A stretch of DNA of 64,000 nucleotides from Dehalococcoidia bacterium (GTDB lineage: Bacteria; Chloroflexota; Dehalococcoidia; GIF9; UBA5629). Shown one piece after another: positions 11,549-19,518 of this stretch. Made by a program: the position numbers and the translations under genes. Within the stretch, counting starts at the first letter, position 1. Every line of letters starts with the position of its first letter. The notes under the pieces are model-generated. The model saw only the letters and a list, made by a program, of their open reading frames with translations. It searched no databases and was not told where the DNA came from. The DNA lies in assembly GCA_003142375.1 (NCBI GenBank), contig PLME01000019.1, positions 88,709 through 152,708 on the forward strand, written 5' to 3'.

Positions 11549-12889
11549 TTACAGGATGGGCAGGTATTTTTTCAGCTCCCACTCTGTAACCTGAACCCGG
11601 TACTGATCACATTCCACTTTTTTGTTCTGTATAAAGGCGTTGAAGAGGTGGTCGCCCAGCGCCTTCTTGACCAGGGAGCTTTTCTCCGTAAGGGCTATGG
11701 CATCGTCCAGGCTGCCGGGCAGCGTCTTGATGCCGCGCTTCTTTCTCTGCTCAGCGCTCATCTCGTAGACGTTCTCCTCGACGGGCGCAGGCGGCTCCAG
11801 TCCCTTTTCGATGCCGTCCAGGCCGGCGGCCAGCATTACGCTGAAAACCAGGTAGGGGTTGCAGGCCGGGTCGGGAGAGCGGTATTCGATGCGCGTGGCA
11901 GTTTCCCGGCCGGGTTTGTATTCGGGCACCCTTACCAGGTCGGCGCGGTTGCGCCTGGCCCACGATACGTAAACGGGCGCCTCGTAGCCGGGAACCAGGC
12001 GTTTGTAGGAGTTGATCCACTGGCTGGTCACCGCGGTGATATCGGGGGCATGCTTGAGAATGCCTGCTATATAGCTCCGGGCGATTTTGGACAGGTGGAA
12101 GGGGTCGCTCTTATCGAAGAAGGCATTGCGTTCGCCTTTGAATAACGATTGATGCACGTGCATGCCGCTGCCGTTTTCCCCGAAGATGGGCTTGGGCATG
12201 AAGGTGGCGTAGACGTTGTTCTCCATGGCGACCTGCTTGACCACCAGCCGGTAGGTCATGACGCTATCGGCCATGGTGAGGGCGTCGGTATAACGCATAT
12301 CGATTTCATGCTGGCTGGGCGCAACCTCATGATGCGAATATTCAATGCCTATGCCCATTTCTTCCAGCGCCAGTACCGACTGACGCCTGAGGTCGACTGC
12401 CATATCCAGCGGCACCAGGTCGAAATAGCCGCCTGAATCCAGGGTTTCCGTGCCCTTGTTATTCTTGAAATAAAAATACTCCAGCTCCGGGCCGACATAG
12501 AAGGTATAGCCGAGATCGGAGGAGCGTTTCAGGTTCTTCTTGAGGATAAACCTGGGGTCGCCCTCGAAGGGCTGGCCGCCCGGCATATAGATATCGCAGA
12601 ACATGCGTCCCACCGACTGTTCTTTGGGCCTCCATGGAAGCAGTTGGAAGGTGTCGGGGTCCGGCAGCGCGATCATGTCGCTCTCATCGATACGGGCGTA
12701 GCCCTCGATGGACGAGCCGTCGAAACCCATGCCTTCTTCCAGGGCTTTTTCCAGTTCCTCGATAGTGATGGAGAAGCTTTTCAGGAAGCCGAGGATATCC
12801 GTAAACCACAGGTTCACGAATTTTACATCGTGTTCCCTGGCCATTTTGAGAACGTATTCTACCGCATCTGCCCTATCTTTGGTCACCAT
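11549..12889 (-). CDS. glnA: Glutamine synthetase type I, alpha subtype
   Basis: ATP-dependent glutamine synthesis from glutamate and ammonia, a cytosolic dodecamer. 446 residues, the short GSI-alpha length. Beta-grasp N terminus (FVNLWFTDILGFLKSF) followed by MGFDGSSIEGYARI, the metal-ligand stretch [29 protein letters not shown] and the substrate loop [19 protein letters not shown]. No adenylylation tyrosine segment is recognisable, as expected for this subtype, which elsewhere is feedback-inhibited or controlled by regulators. It has its own promoter (12923-12951) without an evident GlnR-like box, unlike the neighbouring paralogue. Confidence 0.95.
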   Translation of the reverse strand: MVTKDRADAVEYVLKMAREHDVKFVNLWFTDILGFLKSFSITIEELEKALEEGMGFDGSSIEGYARIDESDMIALPDPDTFQLLPWRPKEQSVGRMFCDIYMPGGQPFEGDPRFILKKNLKRSSDLGYTFYVGPELEYFYFKNNKGTETLDSGGYFDLVPLDMAVDLRRQSVLALEEMGIGIEYSHHEVAPSQHEIDMRYTDALTMADSVMTYRLVVKQVAMENNVYATFMPKPIFGENGSGMHVHQSLFKGERNAFFDKSDPFHLSKIARSYIAGILKHAPDITAVTSQWINSYKRLVPGYEAPVYVSWARRNRADLVRVPEYKPGRETATRIEYRSPDPACNPYLVFSVMLAAGLDGIEKGLEPPAPVEENVYEMSAEQRKKRGIKTLPGSLDDAIALTEKSSLVKKALGDHLFNAFIQNKKVECDQYRVQVTEWELKKYLPIL

Positions 12890-13038: not shown

Positions 13039-14493
13039 CTAGATATCGAAGTACAGGTAGAACTCGTGGGGATGAGGCCTTAGCCTGACCTCGTCAATTT
13101 CCTTGGTTCGCTTGTAATTGATCCATGTGTCAATCAGGTCCTGGGTGAATACGCCGCCCTTCAGCAGGAACTTGTGGTCCTTTTCCAGGGCGTTGATGGC
13201 CTGTTCCAGCGACCCCGGAACGGTCTTCAATTTCTTTGCTTCTTTGGCACTGAGAGTATAGGTGTCCTTGTCGAACGGCAGTCCCGGATCGATCTTGTTT
13301 TCGATGCCGTCCAGTCCGGCCATCAGCAGAGCGGACAGGGCCAGGTAGCCGTTGCAGGTTGAATCCGGGGGCCTGAATTCAATTCTCTTGGCCTTGGGGT
13401 TCTCGGAGTACATGGGGATGCGGACGGCTGCGCTGCGGTTACGGGCCGAGTATACCAGGTTGACGGGAGCTTCAAAGCCGGGCACCAGCCTCTTGTAGGA
13501 GTTTGTCGAAGGGGAGCAAATGGCGCAGAGCGCCTCAGCATGTTTAAGAAGGCCGCCGATGTAATATTTAGCAGTCTGACTGATCAGGGCATAGCCTTTG
13601 GGATCGAAGAACACATTTTTGCCGTCTTTGAAAAGGCTCTGGTGAACGTGCATGCCGGAGCCGTTATCCTGGAACAGCGGTTTCGGCATGAAAGTCGCCA
13701 CCCTGTTATGTTTGCGGCAGACGTTCTTGATGACATATTTGAACCACAACATCTGGTCCGCCATCTTGAGCAGGTCCTTGTACTTCATGTCGATCTCGCA
13801 CTGGCCTGCAGTAGCAACCTCGTGATGATGCACTTCAATTTCAAGGCCAACTGAAGCCATGACCTGAACGATCTCGGACCTGAGGTCCTGCAGTGAATCG
13901 GTCGGCGGCACAGGGAAATAGCCTTCCTTGTACCTGGGCTTGTACGCCAGGTTCGGCTTCTCGTCTTTGCCCGAGTTCCAATCTGCTTCAACAGAGTCTA
14001 CGAAATAATAGCCGCTCTTATGGTCCTGGTCGAAGCGGACATCATCGAAAATAAAGAACTCTGCTTCGGGGCCGCAGTAGCAGGTATCGGCGATGCCCGT
14101 GGATTTCAAATACTGGGCCGCCTTTTTAGCTATGTATCTCGGGTCCCTGGTATAGGGTTGCTTGGCGACCGGGTCGAAAACGTCGCAGATGATGCTAAGA
14201 GTGGGGTGTTCGCAGATAGGATCGATGATGGCGGTTTCCGGGTCGAGCTTAAGGATCATGTCGCTTTCCTGGATCTCCTGGAAGCCGCGAATGCTGGAGC
14301 CGTCGAAGCCTATGCCCTCGGTCCAGATTCCCCCTTTCGCCCCATCAGGATCGTCTATCCCAATTTCGCCTGGGGTAATGGTGAAATGCTGCCACAGACC
14401 GGGCAGATCGAGGAACTTCAGGTCGATGAACTTGATGTTTTCATCCTTGACCTTTTTAAGAATTTTTTCGGGTGTCATTTTTTCGGGTGCCAA
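13039..14493 (-). CDS. glnA: Glutamine synthetase type I, beta-like subtype
   Basis: Second glutamine synthetase, 484 residues. Signatures: [34 protein letters not shown] (GSI-beta type), [39 protein letters not shown]. The C-terminal region has [18 protein letters not shown], where the tyrosine aligns with the adenylylation site of enterobacterial GlnA; no adenylyltransferase gene is visible, so that control is only possible. The start ATG follows a GGAGGAAAC site. A GlnR-like box and a TATAAA -10 lie upstream. It is the first of two glnA genes ending the amtB-glnK-amtB cluster. Confidence 0.94.
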
Positions 14494-14575: not shown

Positions 14576-14619
14576 TTTATAAAGGTCAATTTAGCGCCGA
14601 AATGTTACAAACAGATTAA
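14576..14619 (-). promoter_or_regulatory. GlnR-like box and -10 of beta-type glnA
   Basis: Minus strand TTAAT-N6-GTAAC (14619-14604), then exactly 22 bases, then TATAAA (14581-14576). The -35 region is poor, as expected for an activator-dependent promoter. The 22-base distance is identical to that in front of the upstream amtB (17741-17806). Confidence 0.5.
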
Positions 14620-14736: not shown

Positions 14737-15966
14737 TTATGAAAGCCCGCCGTAAGCCCTTTCGCCGTGCTGCGATATATCCAGGCCGACCATCTCCTCT
14801 TCGTTCCTGACGCGCAGGCCGAAGGTGGCGTCCACCACCTTGGCGATAACCCAGGTGAAACCGAAAGAGTAGCCGGCGGTGACTGCTATGGCCAACATTT
14901 GTATCAGAACCTGCATGCCGTTGCCGTCGATGAGGCCTGACTTGCCGCCAATGGCGGCGGTTGCCAGAATTCCCGTAGCCAGCATGCCGACCGTACCGCC
15001 TATGCCGTGGCAGGCAAATACGTCCAGGGACTCGTCTATCTTGTTGGACCTGCTCCTCCAGAGCATCACATAGTACGAGATAACGGCAGTTACGATGCCG
15101 ATGGGTATGGCAGCCATGGGATGAATGAAGCCGGAGGCCGGCGTTACGGTTGCGAGGCCTACCACCGCTCCGGTAGCAACACCCAGCACAGAAGGCCTGC
15201 GGTGTATCCAGCCCAGGATAAGCCAGGTTATGGCGGCTGAGGCGGCTGCAAAGTTGGTGGAGGCGAAGGCGCTGGCTGCCAAGCCGCCGGCGCTGAGTGC
15301 GCTGCCGGCGTTAAACCCGAACCAGCCGAACCACAGCAGGGCCGTGCCCAGCACTACGTAGGGAATGCTGTTGGGCTCCATGGTCTCCCTCTCCTCAAAA
15401 CCCCTTCTGGGGCCCAGCACCATGGCGATGGCCAGGGCTGCGAAGCCGGCGTTGATGTGAACCACCGAGCCGCCTGCGAAGTCCAGCACGCCCAGGTTTG
15501 CCAGCCAGCCGCCGCTGCCCCATACCCAGTGGGCGATCGGGCAGTAGACCACCGTAAACCATATGGCGGAGAAAATCAGCAAAGCGCTGAACCTTATGCG
15601 CTCCACAACGCCGCCCGTAATAAGCGCCACCGTAATGATGGCAAAGGTAGCCTGGAACATCATGAAGAGGAAATGTGGAATGGTTGTTGCGTAAATATCG
15701 GAGGGGGCCATGCCCACATTCATCAGCCCTGCCCACTGCAGCCCGCCGAAGAGTCCTTTAAAATCGGGCCCGAAGCTAACACTGTAACCGTAGAAGGCCC
15801 AGAGGATGGAGATCAAGCCCAGCATTACGAAGCTCATCATGAGGGTGGAGAGAAGATTTTTCTGGCGGACCATGCCGCCGTAGAAGAAGGCCAGGCCGGG
15901 GGTCATCAGCATCACCATTGCCGTGGCTACCAGCATCCATGCCGTATCGCCTGAGTTAATCTGCAC
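14737..15966 (-). CDS. amtB: Ammonium transporter Amt (copy 1)
   Basis: Polytopic inner-membrane ammonium channel, 409 residues, about 11 membrane helices. It opens INSGDTAWMLVATAMVMLMT and contains PGLAFFYGGMVRQKN, the WGSGGWLANLGVLDFAGGSV pore region, WFGWFGFNAGSAL and the late CHGIGGTVGMLATGI. Start is a GTG with AGGAGG five bases upstream; an out-of-frame ATG overlaps it. The C terminus (VGLDISQHGERAYGGLS) is nearly identical to that of copy 2, showing recent paralogy. It lies downstream of the P-II gene behind a hairpin and has its own leader, so P-II probably gates both transporters. Confidence 0.96.
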   Translation of the reverse strand: MQINSGDTAWMLVATAMVMLMTPGLAFFYGGMVRQKNLLSTLMMSFVMLGLISILWAFYGYSVSFGPDFKGLFGGLQWAGLMNVGMAPSDIYATTIPHFLFMMFQATFAIITVALITGGVVERIRFSALLIFSAIWFTVVYCPIAHWVWGSGGWLANLGVLDFAGGSVVHINAGFAALAIAMVLGPRRGFEERETMEPNSIPYVVLGTALLWFGWFGFNAGSALSAGGLAASAFASTNFAAASAAITWLILGWIHRRPSVLGVATGAVVGLATVTPASGFIHPMAAIPIGIVTAVISYYVMLWRSRSNKIDESLDVFACHGIGGTVGMLATGILATAAIGGKSGLIDGNGMQVLIQMLAIAVTAGYSFGFTWVIAKVVDATFGLRVRNEEEMVGLDISQHGERAYGGLS

Positions 15967-16075
15967 ATTAACCTCCTATTCAGTTTATAAAACCAAATAA
16001 GAAGCTAATCTGCACATCAGCTTCCTTTCAGTTCCTTGAAATTAATATAGCGGCTAATTGTTACAAATAAATTAC
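15967..16075 (-). promoter_or_regulatory. Leader of amtB copy 1: GlnR-like half boxes and a duplicated start region
   Basis: On the minus strand GTAAT-N6-GTAAC (16075-16060) gives two 5-bp sites at 11-bp spacing. A TATATT -10 (16049-16044) lies 10 bases from the nearer site and 21 from the farther. Closer to the gene the string TGTGCAGATTA occurs twice: at the real start, and about 50 bases upstream, where it opens an 11-codon ORF (GTG CAG ATT AGC...TGA) that ends just before the real ribosome site. This looks like a small duplication of the start region. Confidence 0.4.
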
Positions 16076-16149: not shown

Positions 16150-16497
16150 CTATTTAGCGTTTAAGCAAGCTTCGCCAGCGTCGCTGGTCCTGACCCTGTA
16201 AGCATTTTCGACCGGCAGGACAAAGATCATACCGTCGCCCTCCCTGCCTGTCTTGGCCGCCTGGCATATAATACCGATAGCCAGCTGGCATTCTTCATCG
16301 GACAGCACAAGCTCGATCTTGACCTTGGGCAGGAAATCCACTCGGTACTCGCCGGCACGCCATTGAAGTGCGATTCCCTTTTGCCTGCCGCGTCCGTTGA
16401 CATTGGTTACCGTCATGCCCAGCATTCCGTGATCAGCCAGGGCGTCCTTGACTGCGGCCAGTTTTTCAGGACGGATAATAGCTTCGATTTTTTTCAT
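16150..16497 (-). CDS. glnK: Nitrogen regulatory protein P-II
   Basis: Trimeric sensor of 2-oxoglutarate and ATP/ADP that blocks Amt channels. 115 residues, MKKIEAIIRPEKLAAVKDAL at the start, GMTVTNVNGRGRQKG before the T-loop and GREGDGMIFVLPVENAYRVRT at the end, as in the family. The T-loop reads LQWRAGEYRVDFLPK: the uridylylation Tyr51 equivalent is kept, while Tyr46 is tryptophan. The gene overlaps the stop of the upstream amtB by one base (TAATG), the standard amtB-glnK coupling, so it is most likely GlnK-like. No glnD is visible. Confidence 0.95.
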   Translation of the reverse strand: MKKIEAIIRPEKLAAVKDALADHGMLGMTVTNVNGRGRQKGIALQWRAGEYRVDFLPKVKIELVLSDEECQLAIGIICQAAKTGREGDGMIFVLPVENAYRVRTSDAGEACLNAK

Positions 16498-17723
16498 TAT
16501 GAGACACCTCCATAAGCGTTTTCGCCATGCTGAGATATATCAAGCCCGACGGACTCCTCTTCCTCTTTGACCCTTAGGCCCATGGTGGCCTTGAGGGCTT
16601 TGGCCAGCAGCCAGGATACGACGAAGGAATAGGACATGACGGCTGCAATAGCAGCTAATTGTATAAGGACCTGTTTCCAGTTGCCGTCGATCAGGCCGGA
16701 GCCGGCGGCATTGACGGAAGCCGTGGCGAATATCCCGGTGGCCAGTGCGCCCCACGCCCCGCCCATGCCGTGGCAGGCAAAGACGTCCAGTGATTCATCC
16801 ACCCTGTTGGCCTTTGATCTCCAGACCATAACGTAGTAGGAGATGATCGAGCCTATGGCGCCAATAGGGATGGCAGCCCAGGGCTGCACGAAGCCGGCGG
16901 CCGGTGTAATAGCTACCAGGCCTACTACCGCACCCGTGGCAGCGCCCAGCACCGACGGCCTGCGATGTACCCATCCCAGAATCATCCAGGTGAAGCCTGC
17001 CGAAGCTGCTGCAGTATTGGTGGTGACAAAGGCGCTGGACGCAAGTCCACCCGCCGTTAAAGCGCTGCCGGCGTTGAACCCGAACCAGCCGAACCAGAGT
17101 AAAGCAGCTCCCAGCACTACATAGGGTATATTGTTGGGCTCCATGGACTCGCCCTCTTTAAAACCCTGGCGGGGTCCCAGCACCCAGGCTAGAGCCAGGG
17201 CCGAGATACCTGCGTTGACGTGAACAACCGTGCCGCCGGCGAAATCGAGGGCGCCAAGCTGCGCCAACCAGCCGCCGCTGCCCCATACCCAGTGTGCGAT
17301 CGGACAATAGACCAGCGTAAACCACAGTGCGGCAAAGGCCAGCAGTGCGCCGAACTTGATGCGTTCTACTACGGCGCCTGTCCACAAAGCCACAGTGATG
17401 ATGGCAAAGGCGCCCTGAAAGGCCATGAAAGCCAGGTGCGGCACAGTAACGGCATAGATTGTGGAGGCGGCCTGTCCCACTCCCATCAGCCCGAACCATG
17501 CAAAGTTACCGGTCAGGCCTTTAACATCCGGCCCGAAAGCCATCGTATAGCCGTAAATTACCCAGAGCACGGAAATCATGCAGAGGATAGCGAAACTCAT
17601 CATTATGGTCGAAAGAAGGTTCTTTTTTCTGACCATCCCGCCGTAAAAGAAGGCGAGGCCGGGCGTCATAAGGATCACAAGCGCTGTGGAAATGAGTAAC
17701 CAGGCAGTATCGCCCGAATTCAT
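16497..17723 (-). CDS. amtB: Ammonium transporter Amt (copy 2)
   Basis: Second Amt, 408 residues, closely related to copy 1 along its whole length. MNSGDTAWLLISTALVILMT, PGLAFFYGGMVRKKN, WGSGGWLAQLGALDFAGG, WFGWFGFNAGSAL and CHGMGGAWGALATG are seen. It is translationally coupled to the P-II gene. AAGGAGGTG lies six bases before the ATG. Its upstream region holds the best GlnR-like operator of the window (four 5-bp sites with 11-bp period), which implies induction under nitrogen limitation. Confidence 0.96.
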   Translation of the reverse strand: MNSGDTAWLLISTALVILMTPGLAFFYGGMVRKKNLLSTIMMSFAILCMISVLWVIYGYTMAFGPDVKGLTGNFAWFGLMGVGQAASTIYAVTVPHLAFMAFQGAFAIITVALWTGAVVERIKFGALLAFAALWFTLVYCPIAHWVWGSGGWLAQLGALDFAGGTVVHVNAGISALALAWVLGPRQGFKEGESMEPNNIPYVVLGAALLWFGWFGFNAGSALTAGGLASSAFVTTNTAAASAGFTWMILGWVHRRPSVLGAATGAVVGLVAITPAAGFVQPWAAIPIGAIGSIISYYVMVWRSKANRVDESLDVFACHGMGGAWGALATGIFATASVNAAGSGLIDGNWKQVLIQLAAIAAVMSYSFVVSWLLAKALKATMGLRVKEEEESVGLDISQHGENAYGGVS

Positions 17724-17740: not shown

Positions 17741-17806
17741 TTTATACGAGGAAGTTTAAAGGAGGCCTGTTTCGGGATTATTACGGGGATGTTAACTTTG
17801 TGTTAC
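17741..17806 (-). promoter_or_regulatory. Four-site GlnR-like operator and promoter of amtB-glnK
   Basis: The minus strand reads GTAAC-N6-TTAAC-N6-GTAAT-N6-GAAAC (17806-17769). This is the a-b-a-b layout of the actinobacterial GlnR box (gTnAC-n6-GaAAC repeated). After 22 bases comes TATAAA (17746-17741) and then the ribosome site. The -35 hexamer is missing, typical of an activated promoter. It lies directly downstream of the GlnR-like gene. Confidence 0.65.
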
Positions 17807-17815
17807 AGGATGGGG

Positions 17816-18502
17816 TTAACTTTTGGTGGGGGAATCTTTGAACTTGTAGCCTATATTCCTGACGGTATCAACGAAGGCATGCTCCGGGTCTTCTATCTTG
17901 CTGCGCAGCCTGCGGATGTGGACGTCCACCGTGCGGTCGCCGCCGTAGTAATCGTAGCCCCAGATTTCGTTGAGCAGCGCTTCACGCGTAAAGACCTTTC
18001 CCTTGTTGGTGGCCAGCAATTTCAGCAGCTCATATTCTTTGAAGGTCAGCGCCAGCAGCCTGCCCCCCAGCTCCACTTCACACCTGATGGGGTCGATGGT
18101 CAGGTCCCCTACCTTTATTATAGTCGCTTCGTTTTCTCTGTTGACCCTGCTGACCAGCCTGCGTATCCTGGTGGAGAGCTCATCCAGGTTCCAGGGTTTC
18201 ATGATGAAATCATCCAGACCCTGCTCGCCGACGACCGTGTGCAGGGTTGGAGTGGAGATAAGTGCGATCACAGGGAGCAGCCGCCTCAATTTGAGCTTCC
18301 TGAACCATTTCCAGGCCGAATCGCCGTGGGCCGAGATGGCGGATACGTCGACCAGGGCAATATTGAAGAATTGGCGCTGGTCCTGCTCGATCACGTCATC
18401 GGCATAGACGCAGGCGGTGCAGGAAAAGCCCAGCCGGCTGAGGCCTGCGCTCAGGTCCTTCACCCGGTCCATCTCGTTGGTAACTAATAAAATGTTGTAC
18501 AT
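17816..18502 (-). CDS. Atypical OmpR-family regulator resembling GlnR
   Basis: 228 residues from the ATG at 18502 (MYNILLVTNEMDRV); the track start adds 22 residues lying in the upstream gap and nrpR end. Receiver domain about 1-120: the acidic pair normally after beta-1 is Thr8-Asn9, while Asp52 (ALVDVSA) and Lys102 (FIMKPW) remain, so ordinary phosphorylation is doubtful. A winged helix covers about 130-225 (LTFKEYELLKLLATNKGKVF, then YYGGDRTVDVHIRRLRSK). Opening LLVTN, the GLDDF motif and the wing match actinobacterial GlnR, the orphan nitrogen regulator. It is 14 bases downstream of nrpR and next to amtB-glnK with GlnR-like boxes. No histidine kinase is adjacent. Confidence 0.8.
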   Translation of the reverse strand: MYNILLVTNEMDRVKDLSAGLSRLGFSCTACVYADDVIEQDQRQFFNIALVDVSAISAHGDSAWKWFRKLKLRRLLPVIALISTPTLHTVVGEQGLDDFIMKPWNLDELSTRIRRLVSRVNRENEATIIKVGDLTIDPIRCEVELGGRLLALTFKEYELLKLLATNKGKVFTREALLNEIWGYDYYGGDRTVDVHIRRLRSKIEDPEHAFVDTVRNIGYKFKDSPTKS

Positions 18503-18516
18503 AAATAAAGGTTTTA

Positions 18517-19518
18517 TTATATCAGTTCGTTGAATGGACGCAGCCTGGTTACATCCATCACTCCGCACATAGCCCGGTTGCTTACATGGATACCTGCTTC
18601 GGCTGCCGCAGCCGCAGGATTCAGGCCGCTAAGCGTAATCAGCCCGGCCTTTTCAGGATTATAGGGTATCTCGCATATCTTATCGCCGGGCCTGGCCAGC
18701 ACGGCGAAGCTGATCAGGCCGCTGCTCTTCAAACGCTGAAGCAGTTCGTCTGCTTTGCCGACCGAGAGCATGGGTATTTCATGATAGCCCGCCAGCACTT
18801 TGCCATCGCCGCTGGCAGCCGCATGTATCACATCTGTCATATTTCCGGCTATGAATATATCGGACGGGTCTATGGTGGAACCCGAGAATTCGATGAGGTC
18901 GATAAACCTGAAGGGCTGGCCCTCTCTGATCTGAAGCAGTCCGCCGAAGCGTGCGTGGGCAGGGATGCCCGCTTTCAGCAGGCAGCCGTTGACAGCTACG
19001 CTGCAAACAGTGGCGAAACCTATCTTGCCCGCCGGCACGAGGGTATCTCCCAGGTTGTTGCCTTCGGCGGCTACGGCTACCATGCCGGACGAGCAAAGCC
19101 CGGACTCGAAGACGCCTTTCATGGCCTTCAAGGCCTTCGAGTAATCTTCCCTGGCGATGAGCCAGGCGTCTATGGGTATCCTGCCGGTGGATGAGCGCAA
19201 GCCCACGTTGGTCTGGTAAGCCAGCCGCTCAATCTTGGTTCCCACGAATCCTATCTTGTCGGTTACCAGGCAGTTCCTCAATTCCTCCAGCCCTGCCACC
19301 GTGATCGTGCGTCCGTCCTTGCGGCCCACGGTGCGCGTCAACCCGCGTCCGTCCATAATTTTCAGGTGATAGCGCACAGCCCTTTCACCCAGGGATATGC
19401 CCTGCTCTTCCAGAAGGGTGGAAATATTCCGGCTGCCCAGTGGACCGGGCGAGTCGCTGAGGATTTTGAGAATGGCGGTGGTCTTCCTGTCTACTTCACG
19501 CGTTTCCTGTCCTAGCAT
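18517..19518 (-). CDS. nrpR: NrpR-family nitrogen regulator (HTH plus DUF128 domain)
   Basis: 333 residues. Residues about 8-75 form a winged helix (TTAILKILSDSPGPLGSRNI, then GERAVRYHLKIMDGRGL). Residues about 85-330 form one NrpR/DUF128 domain (GFVGTKIERLAYQTNVGLRS, GLCSSGMVAVAAEGN, GKIGFATVCSVAVNGCLLKAG, LIEFSGSTIDPSDIF). In methanogens NrpR represses nif, glnA and amt genes and is released by 2-oxoglutarate. This copy has the one-HTH, one-domain form. It is co-directional with hisF (24-base gap) and the GlnR-like gene (14 bases). No GGAA-N6-TTCC operator was found by eye near the nitrogen genes. Confidence 0.85.
   Translation of the reverse strand: MLGQETREVDRKTTAILKILSDSPGPLGSRNISTLLEEQGISLGERAVRYHLKIMDGRGLTRTVGRKDGRTITVAGLEELRNCLVTDKIGFVGTKIERLAYQTNVGLRSSTGRIPIDAWLIAREDYSKALKAMKGVFESGLCSSGMVAVAAEGNNLGDTLVPAGKIGFATVCSVAVNGCLLKAGIPAHARFGGLLQIREGQPFRFIDLIEFSGSTIDPSDIFIAGNMTDVIHAAASGDGKVLAGYHEIPMLSVGKADELLQRLKSSGLISFAVLARPGDKICEIPYNPEKAGLITLSGLNPAAAAAEAGIHVSNRAMCGVMDVTRLRPFNELI

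Follow-up and report, generated by a model that had tools for sequence, protein, structure and literature searches.

GlnR has so far been described as a nitrogen regulator of Actinobacteria; what, then, is a GlnR-like orphan regulator doing beside the ammonium transporter and glutamine synthetase genes of a bacterium from another phylum? The question is raised by a 64,000-nucleotide stretch of a Dehalococcoidia (Chloroflexota) genome (assembly GCA_003142375.1, contig PLME01000019.1, positions 88,709 to 152,708), hereafter the window, in which an OmpR-family gene at 17816-18502 precedes the genes amt1, glnK, amt2 and glnA. We consider it very likely, with a probability of about 0.86, that this gene encodes a Chloroflexota GlnR that binds pentamers spaced 11 bp apart and activates amt1-glnK, amt2 and glnA. 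The proposal draws on computed properties, i.e. phylogenetic grouping, loss of the receiver's acidic pair, conservation of the sites and of their spacing to the -10 element, and gene linkage, from which we infer that the regulator would bind these sites, activate transcription and sense nitrogen.

Placement of the regulator

How close is this protein to GlnR? When its sequence was compared singly with all PDB chains, the best matches were GlnR structures (8hig, with an expectation value of 2.6e-36, and also 8hih), and in a profile comparison with PDB chains GlnR again came first (7e-47). In a full-length tree, the orthologues and six actinobacterial GlnRs lie on one side and MtrA, RegX3, PrrA and the paralogues on the opposite side, with a support of 100 in the Shimodaira–Hasegawa-like approximate likelihood ratio test (SH-aLRT); the same split is recovered (98/85) from the DNA-binding domain only, a tree that avoids attraction between degenerate receivers. 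Besides MtrA, RegX3 and PrrA, dozens of further OmpR-type regulators served for comparison, PhoP not among them. The Mycobacterium tuberculosis reference sequences were checked against PDB chains (MtrA is identical over 228 residues, GlnR at all but the first residue), and four further actinobacterial GlnR sequences were taken from plasmid-collection records. Additionally, a GG-RTVDVH signature in the region of the recognition helix is present in 46/46 orthologues, 6/6 GlnRs and 1/47 other rows, that single row being a mislabelled duplicate orthologue. The DNA-binding domain is 54% identical to that of 8hig in the Foldseek alignment. In other words, the likeness to actinobacterial GlnR suggested by a first-pass annotation of this DNA, made from the sequence alone, is borne out by the PDB ranking and by both trees, which place the regulator with GlnR and away from ordinary phosphorylated OmpR-type proteins.

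The receiver domain carries T8-N9 in the position of the acidic pair, in agreement with the earlier description of an OmpR-type regulator that lacks this pair, and it retains D52 and K102. A degenerate phosphorylation pocket of this kind is a hallmark of GlnR, as is the orphan state, and here the neighbours of the regulator are NrpR-like, hisF and amt genes, with no histidine kinase adjoining. An AlphaFold model of the protein has a mean predicted local distance difference test score (pLDDT) of 81 and a predicted template modelling score (pTM) of 0.54, with the domain arrangement unsure.

Could the protein instead be an ordinary response regulator of the PhoB/RegX3/MtrA type, sitting beside nitrogen genes by chance and phosphorylated by an unlinked histidine kinase? 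NCBIfam models of such regulators give many weak matches, RegX3 ranks third in the PDB profile comparison, and Foldseek, which compares folds, does not separate GlnR from other members of the OmpR family. However, every one of the NCBIfam scores is far under its cut-off, the trees set the regulator apart, and the acidic pair is not intact in nearly all orthologues throughout the class, some of which are missing D52 itself, whereas the sampled paralogues retain the pair almost without exception. We therefore regard an ordinary response regulator as improbable.

Orthologues were sought by a profile search across 301 Chloroflexota genomes, in which matches of over 185 bits were taken as clear. 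Clear orthologues are confined to the class Dehalococcoidia, and ordinary response regulators are among the next-best matches (178 bits and below), for example one with the acidic pair kept (L127). A regulator of 40% identity was also seen on a contig titled Desulfurellaceae (L048 4446-5156), the end of which precedes any target gene; it may reflect transfer, contamination or a wider distribution.

Boxes and promoter geometry

The boxes reported in the first-pass annotation, i.e. the four-site box of amt1-glnK, TTAAT-N6-GTAAC before glnA and GTAAT-N6-GTAAC before amt2, are all present on the minus strand (Table 1), and the four amt1 pentamers lie in the intergenic gap, after the regulator's stop codon and ahead of the amt1 start. 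They are of the GTnAC-n6-GAAAC type, in 11-bp phase and before amtB-glnK and glnA, as expected of GlnR. How rare are such sites? In pattern searches that covered the whole 2.14-Mb genome containing the window, KTAAY-N6-GTAACA occurs three times, two of them in the window, and a box with TANANT 10 nucleotides (nt) downstream has three zero-mismatch places, namely amt1, amt2 and glnA only. The latter pattern was composed after comparative alignment of these very promoters, so its rarity is an illustration rather than an independent test, and independent support comes from conservation in relatives. Allowing one mismatch gave five extra places in this genome, versus eight in a reversed control, and we claim none of them as further regulon members; close to one (L094) no nitrogen gene was seen.

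Conservation in orthologous promoters, the absence of which the annotation had named as the result that would speak against its proposal, extends across the class. In counts made after the removal of near-duplicates, box and -10 element stand before 37/37 non-redundant amt genes, as compared with 0.02 expected from shuffles that preserve single-base composition only, and before 5/8 glnA and 11/24 second glnA genes. The same combination was found upstream of none of the glnK (0/30, operon-internal), nrpR (0/18), hisF (0/34), hisH (0/24) or regulator (0/51) genes. The second glnA of the window is without a box of its own; orthologues in several relatives carry one. Among close relatives, the amt1 box is constant at almost every pentamer base and the spacers are variable. 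Exact matches to a published consensus are few (3-5/48) because of a T at the fifth base.

What is the spacing between box and promoter? The annotation had proposed a fixed geometry in which a TATAAA -10 box lies 22 nt past the last pentamer. Such a TATAAA is present at both amt1 (17746-17741) and glnA (14581-14576), and a fixed spacing does exist, but it is a different one: when 54 sites were picked regardless of any -10 element and TANNNT was then tallied at each offset, 48/54 had it at offset 10, every other offset reaching 7 at most, and TATAAA at offset 22 was found in 4/54. We have thus rejected the TATAAA as the -10 element in favor of TANNNT at 10 nt. With its last pentamer 10 nt upstream of the -10 element, the array extends over the -35 region.

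In class II activation by PhoB-family proteins, the array likewise lies over the -35 position, and a mechanism along these lines can be envisioned here. A winged-helix protein of the OmpR family whose receiver is degenerate, and which probably works without aspartyl phosphorylation, would bind as subunits arranged head to tail on 11-bp-spaced pentamers (GTAAC, GTAAT, GAAAC or TTAAT); the array, ending 10 nt before a TANNNT -10 element, would occupy a -35 region lacking a good -35 hexamer; and the bound protein would recruit RNA polymerase, such that amt1-glnK, amt2 and glnA would be switched on, presumably under nitrogen limitation. Might the regulator bind these boxes and mainly repress, as MtrA does at Streptomyces GlnR boxes? 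Arrays that end 10 nt before the -10 element and replace the -35 element are arranged as in class II activation, and in the trees the regulator falls with the activator GlnR and not with MtrA, which makes predominant repression highly improbable.

Table 1. Features of the window discussed here, with positions counted from its first nucleotide
Feature	Coordinates	Strand	Basis
GlnR-type orphan OmpR-family regulator, 228 amino acids (aa), ATG at 18502	17816..18502	-	Trans_reg_C 94.8 bits, PDB ranking, trees
NrpR-like gene, winged helix and NRD domains	18517..19518	-	PF01995 230 bits, PF08461 69 bits
Ammonium transporter amt1	16497..17723	-	PF00909 438 bits; TIGR00836
PII protein glnK, operon with amt1	16150..16497	-	PF00543 102 bits
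Ammonium transporter amt2	14737..15966	-	PF00909 421 bits
Type I glutamine synthetase glnA	13039..14493	-	TIGR00653 654 bits
Second glutamine synthetase, downstream of glnA	11549..12889	-	TIGR00653 540 bits
Four-site GlnR-type box of amt1-glnK, pentamers 11 bp apart: GTAAC 17806-17802, TTAAC 17795-17791, GTAAT 17784-17780, GAAAC 17773-17769	17769..17806	-	Conserved in relatives
Probable -10 TAAACT of amt1, 10 nt past last pentamer	17753..17758	-	TANNNT offset-10 conservation
TATAAA near amt1, probably not the -10	17741..17746	-	Offset 22 not conserved
Two-site amt2 box GTAAT-N6-GTAAC (16075-16071, 16064-16060)	16060..16075	-	Conserved in L032, L034
Probable -10 TATATT of amt2, 10 nt past last pentamer	16044..16049	-	Offset-10 conservation
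Two-site glnA box TTAAT-N6-GTAAC (14619-14615, 14608-14604)	14604..14619	-	Same box in L032, L044
Probable -10 TAAATT of glnA, 10 nt past last pentamer	14588..14593	-	Offset-10 conservation

Gene neighborhood, the NrpR partner and exceptions

The genes are transcribed from the minus strand in the order hisH, hisF, NrpR-like gene, regulator, amt1, glnK, amt2, glnA and second glnA, and glnK is the only PII gene found in the genome. The annotation had the amt1-glnK and glnA neighbors right but overlooked the NrpR-like gene directly upstream of the regulator, with which it is probably co-transcribed. In many of the orthologue loci that were fetched, the regulator is linked to amt, glnK and glnA, often together with hisF/hisH, and in one of them (L152 5716-10004) archaeal-type glutamate synthase genes immediately precede the regulator and an asparagine synthase follows it. 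In some deeper-branching genomes (e.g. L142, L143, L145, L146), the surroundings of the regulator yielded neither amt nor glnA, nor was a box seen. A relaxed box match at position 3502 of L128 lies inside an NAD-synthetase-like open reading frame and was taken as chance. In a genome of the same genus (G001), the amt1 orthologue consists of two overlapping pieces (L032 6779-8463 and L151 8524-10208), of about 362 aa at 77% and 202 aa at 97% identity, pointing to an amt fusion or duplication or else to a misassembly.

NrpR is a competitor for the boxes, given that in methanogens it controls nif, glnA and amtB-glnK. The genome of the window holds three PF01995 genes, and NrpR is present in most relatives, adjoining the regulator in most of those of family f1. 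Two nearly complete genomes (G028, 96%; G033, 95%) have no NrpR at all and keep box and -10 element before amt, and G001 lacks the neighboring NrpR copy and keeps its boxes; the box is thus independent of NrpR. That the boxes belong to this 2-oxoglutarate-responsive, archaeal-type repressor, the OmpR-type protein having some other role, is the least probable of the alternatives and was rejected in view of the two NrpR-free genomes, despite the adjacency of the genes and the methanogen precedent, and the sites are head-to-tail repeats, whereas NrpR would be expected on an inverted repeat.

Do box and regulator also disappear together? In first scans, 26 Dehalococcoidia genomes were without a clear orthologue, and only five of these have amt. 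Two of the five (G137, G238) turned out to hold a divergent orthologue adjoining glnA. In G025, the orthologue is split over two frames beside an intact box (L175 1939-2564, minus strand), by either a frameshift or a sequencing error, and in G246 the box is on a short contig without the regulator. Within the same order, 20 genomes gave no clear orthologue match; of these, only G025 has amt, and in none do box and -10 element stand before the second glnA, insofar as that gene was found.

Several observations weigh against a GlnR assignment. The motif alone cannot name the protein, since similar repeats of 11 bp are targets of MtrA and PhoP-type proteins as well (PMC6988585). The receiver of the window regulator scores 15.4 bits against the GlnR_1st model PF21695, for which the cut-off is 27; it retains the lysine K102; and, with D52 and T8 present, it has a serine where GlnR has Arg-52, the partner of Asp-50. 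Finally, the 97% complete genome G160 has no recognizable orthologue, and a four-phase array of pentamers stands before its amt (L216 around 7221, minus strand). That array has no TANNNT at offset 10, and the genome is an unexplained exception. PF21695, which matches 18/23 relatives at expectation values of up to 1 (the best being 8.9e-6), is a model of actinobacterial receivers and no functional criterion.

Nitrogen fixation and comparison with known systems

Does the putative regulon extend to nitrogen fixation? In G088, a genome in one contig of 1,469,720 bp, which is Dehalococcoides-sized, what looks like an operon with molybdate-transporter-like and nifH/nifD-type genes begins with a divergent regulator paralogue, and a box of three sites, with TATCAT at offset 10, stands before the operon (L148 9399-9368, minus strand). 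A radical-SAM gene, named nifB-type from its sequence and nif neighbors without a family search, has an array of four sites in front of it, with TATAGT at offset 10 (L149 12962-12931, minus strand). These two sites are the only relaxed matches to box and -10 element in the 36 kb of G088 that were read. According to a review, the nif, ammonium transporter and PII genes of Dehalococcoides mccartyi 195 respond to nitrogen status (PMC3462421), and these are the same kinds of genes as those that bear boxes here. Perhaps, then, nif genes too are under GlnR-type control, a prediction from one genome. We can also imagine, tentatively and at rather less than even odds, a two-protein circuit in Dehalococcoidia that combines a GlnR-type activator on direct-repeat boxes with an NrpR repressor, and in which, in nitrogen-fixing Dehalococcoides, GlnR and the paralogue of the mod-nif operon would activate nitrogen fixation.

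Among the open-licence papers searched, we found no report of GlnR outside Actinobacteria, be it in Chloroflexi, in Dehalococcoides or together with NrpR. The proposal of a GlnR-like nitrogen regulon beyond that phylum, made in the first-pass annotation, is now supported by box conservation and by the regulator trees: judging from these patterns, the Dehalococcoidia GlnR probably turns on ammonium uptake and glutamine synthesis. That a Chloroflexota class shares protein clade, box and targets with Actinobacteria would make the system older or more mobile than thought. The Dehalococcoidia include the chlorinated-solvent-degrading Dehalococcoides group, which relies on a supply of ammonium to grow in bioremediation, and for such organisms a candidate regulator of nitrogen control is now at hand. 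Additionally, divergent GlnRs in which the receiver lysine is kept or the aspartate is lost should help in asking how GlnR senses nitrogen without phosphorylation.

How does this system compare with those already characterized? Bacillus GlnR, a MerR-family protein, is alike in name and targets only; protein family and operator differ. NrpR of methanogenic archaea controls the same kind of genes and has a homologue adjoining the regulator, but it is an unrelated protein, a repressor with an inverted-repeat operator, and is dispensable for box retention. Actinobacterial MtrA and PhoP have the OmpR-family fold in common with the regulator and likewise bind direct repeats of 11 bp, with MtrA a competitor for GlnR boxes; they differ in their canonical phosphorylated receivers, and MtrA falls outside the GlnR clade. 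Closest is actinobacterial GlnR (8hih from M. tuberculosis, 8hig from Saccharopolyspora erythraea), the box of which is known, as is a four-site promoter complex in which four DNA-binding domains are lined up head to tail (PMC10704036). Shared features are the DNA-binding domain with its GG-RTVDVH and RN-GYK signatures, the lost acidic pair, the orphan state, the targets amtB-glnK and glnA, and four-site arrays of 11-bp-phased GTnAC/GAAAC sites. The Chloroflexota regulator differs in its diverged receiver, with K102 kept and Arg-52 absent (in the unphosphorylated GlnR homodimer, Asp-50 is held by Arg-52 and Thr-9; the window protein has D52, T8 and serine for the arginine), in a penultimate pentamer that mostly has T at its fifth base, and in its frequent pairing with NrpR near his and glutamate synthase genes. 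In sum, clade, box and targets are those of the known GlnR system, and what differs is the phylum, the details of the receiver and the partnership with NrpR.
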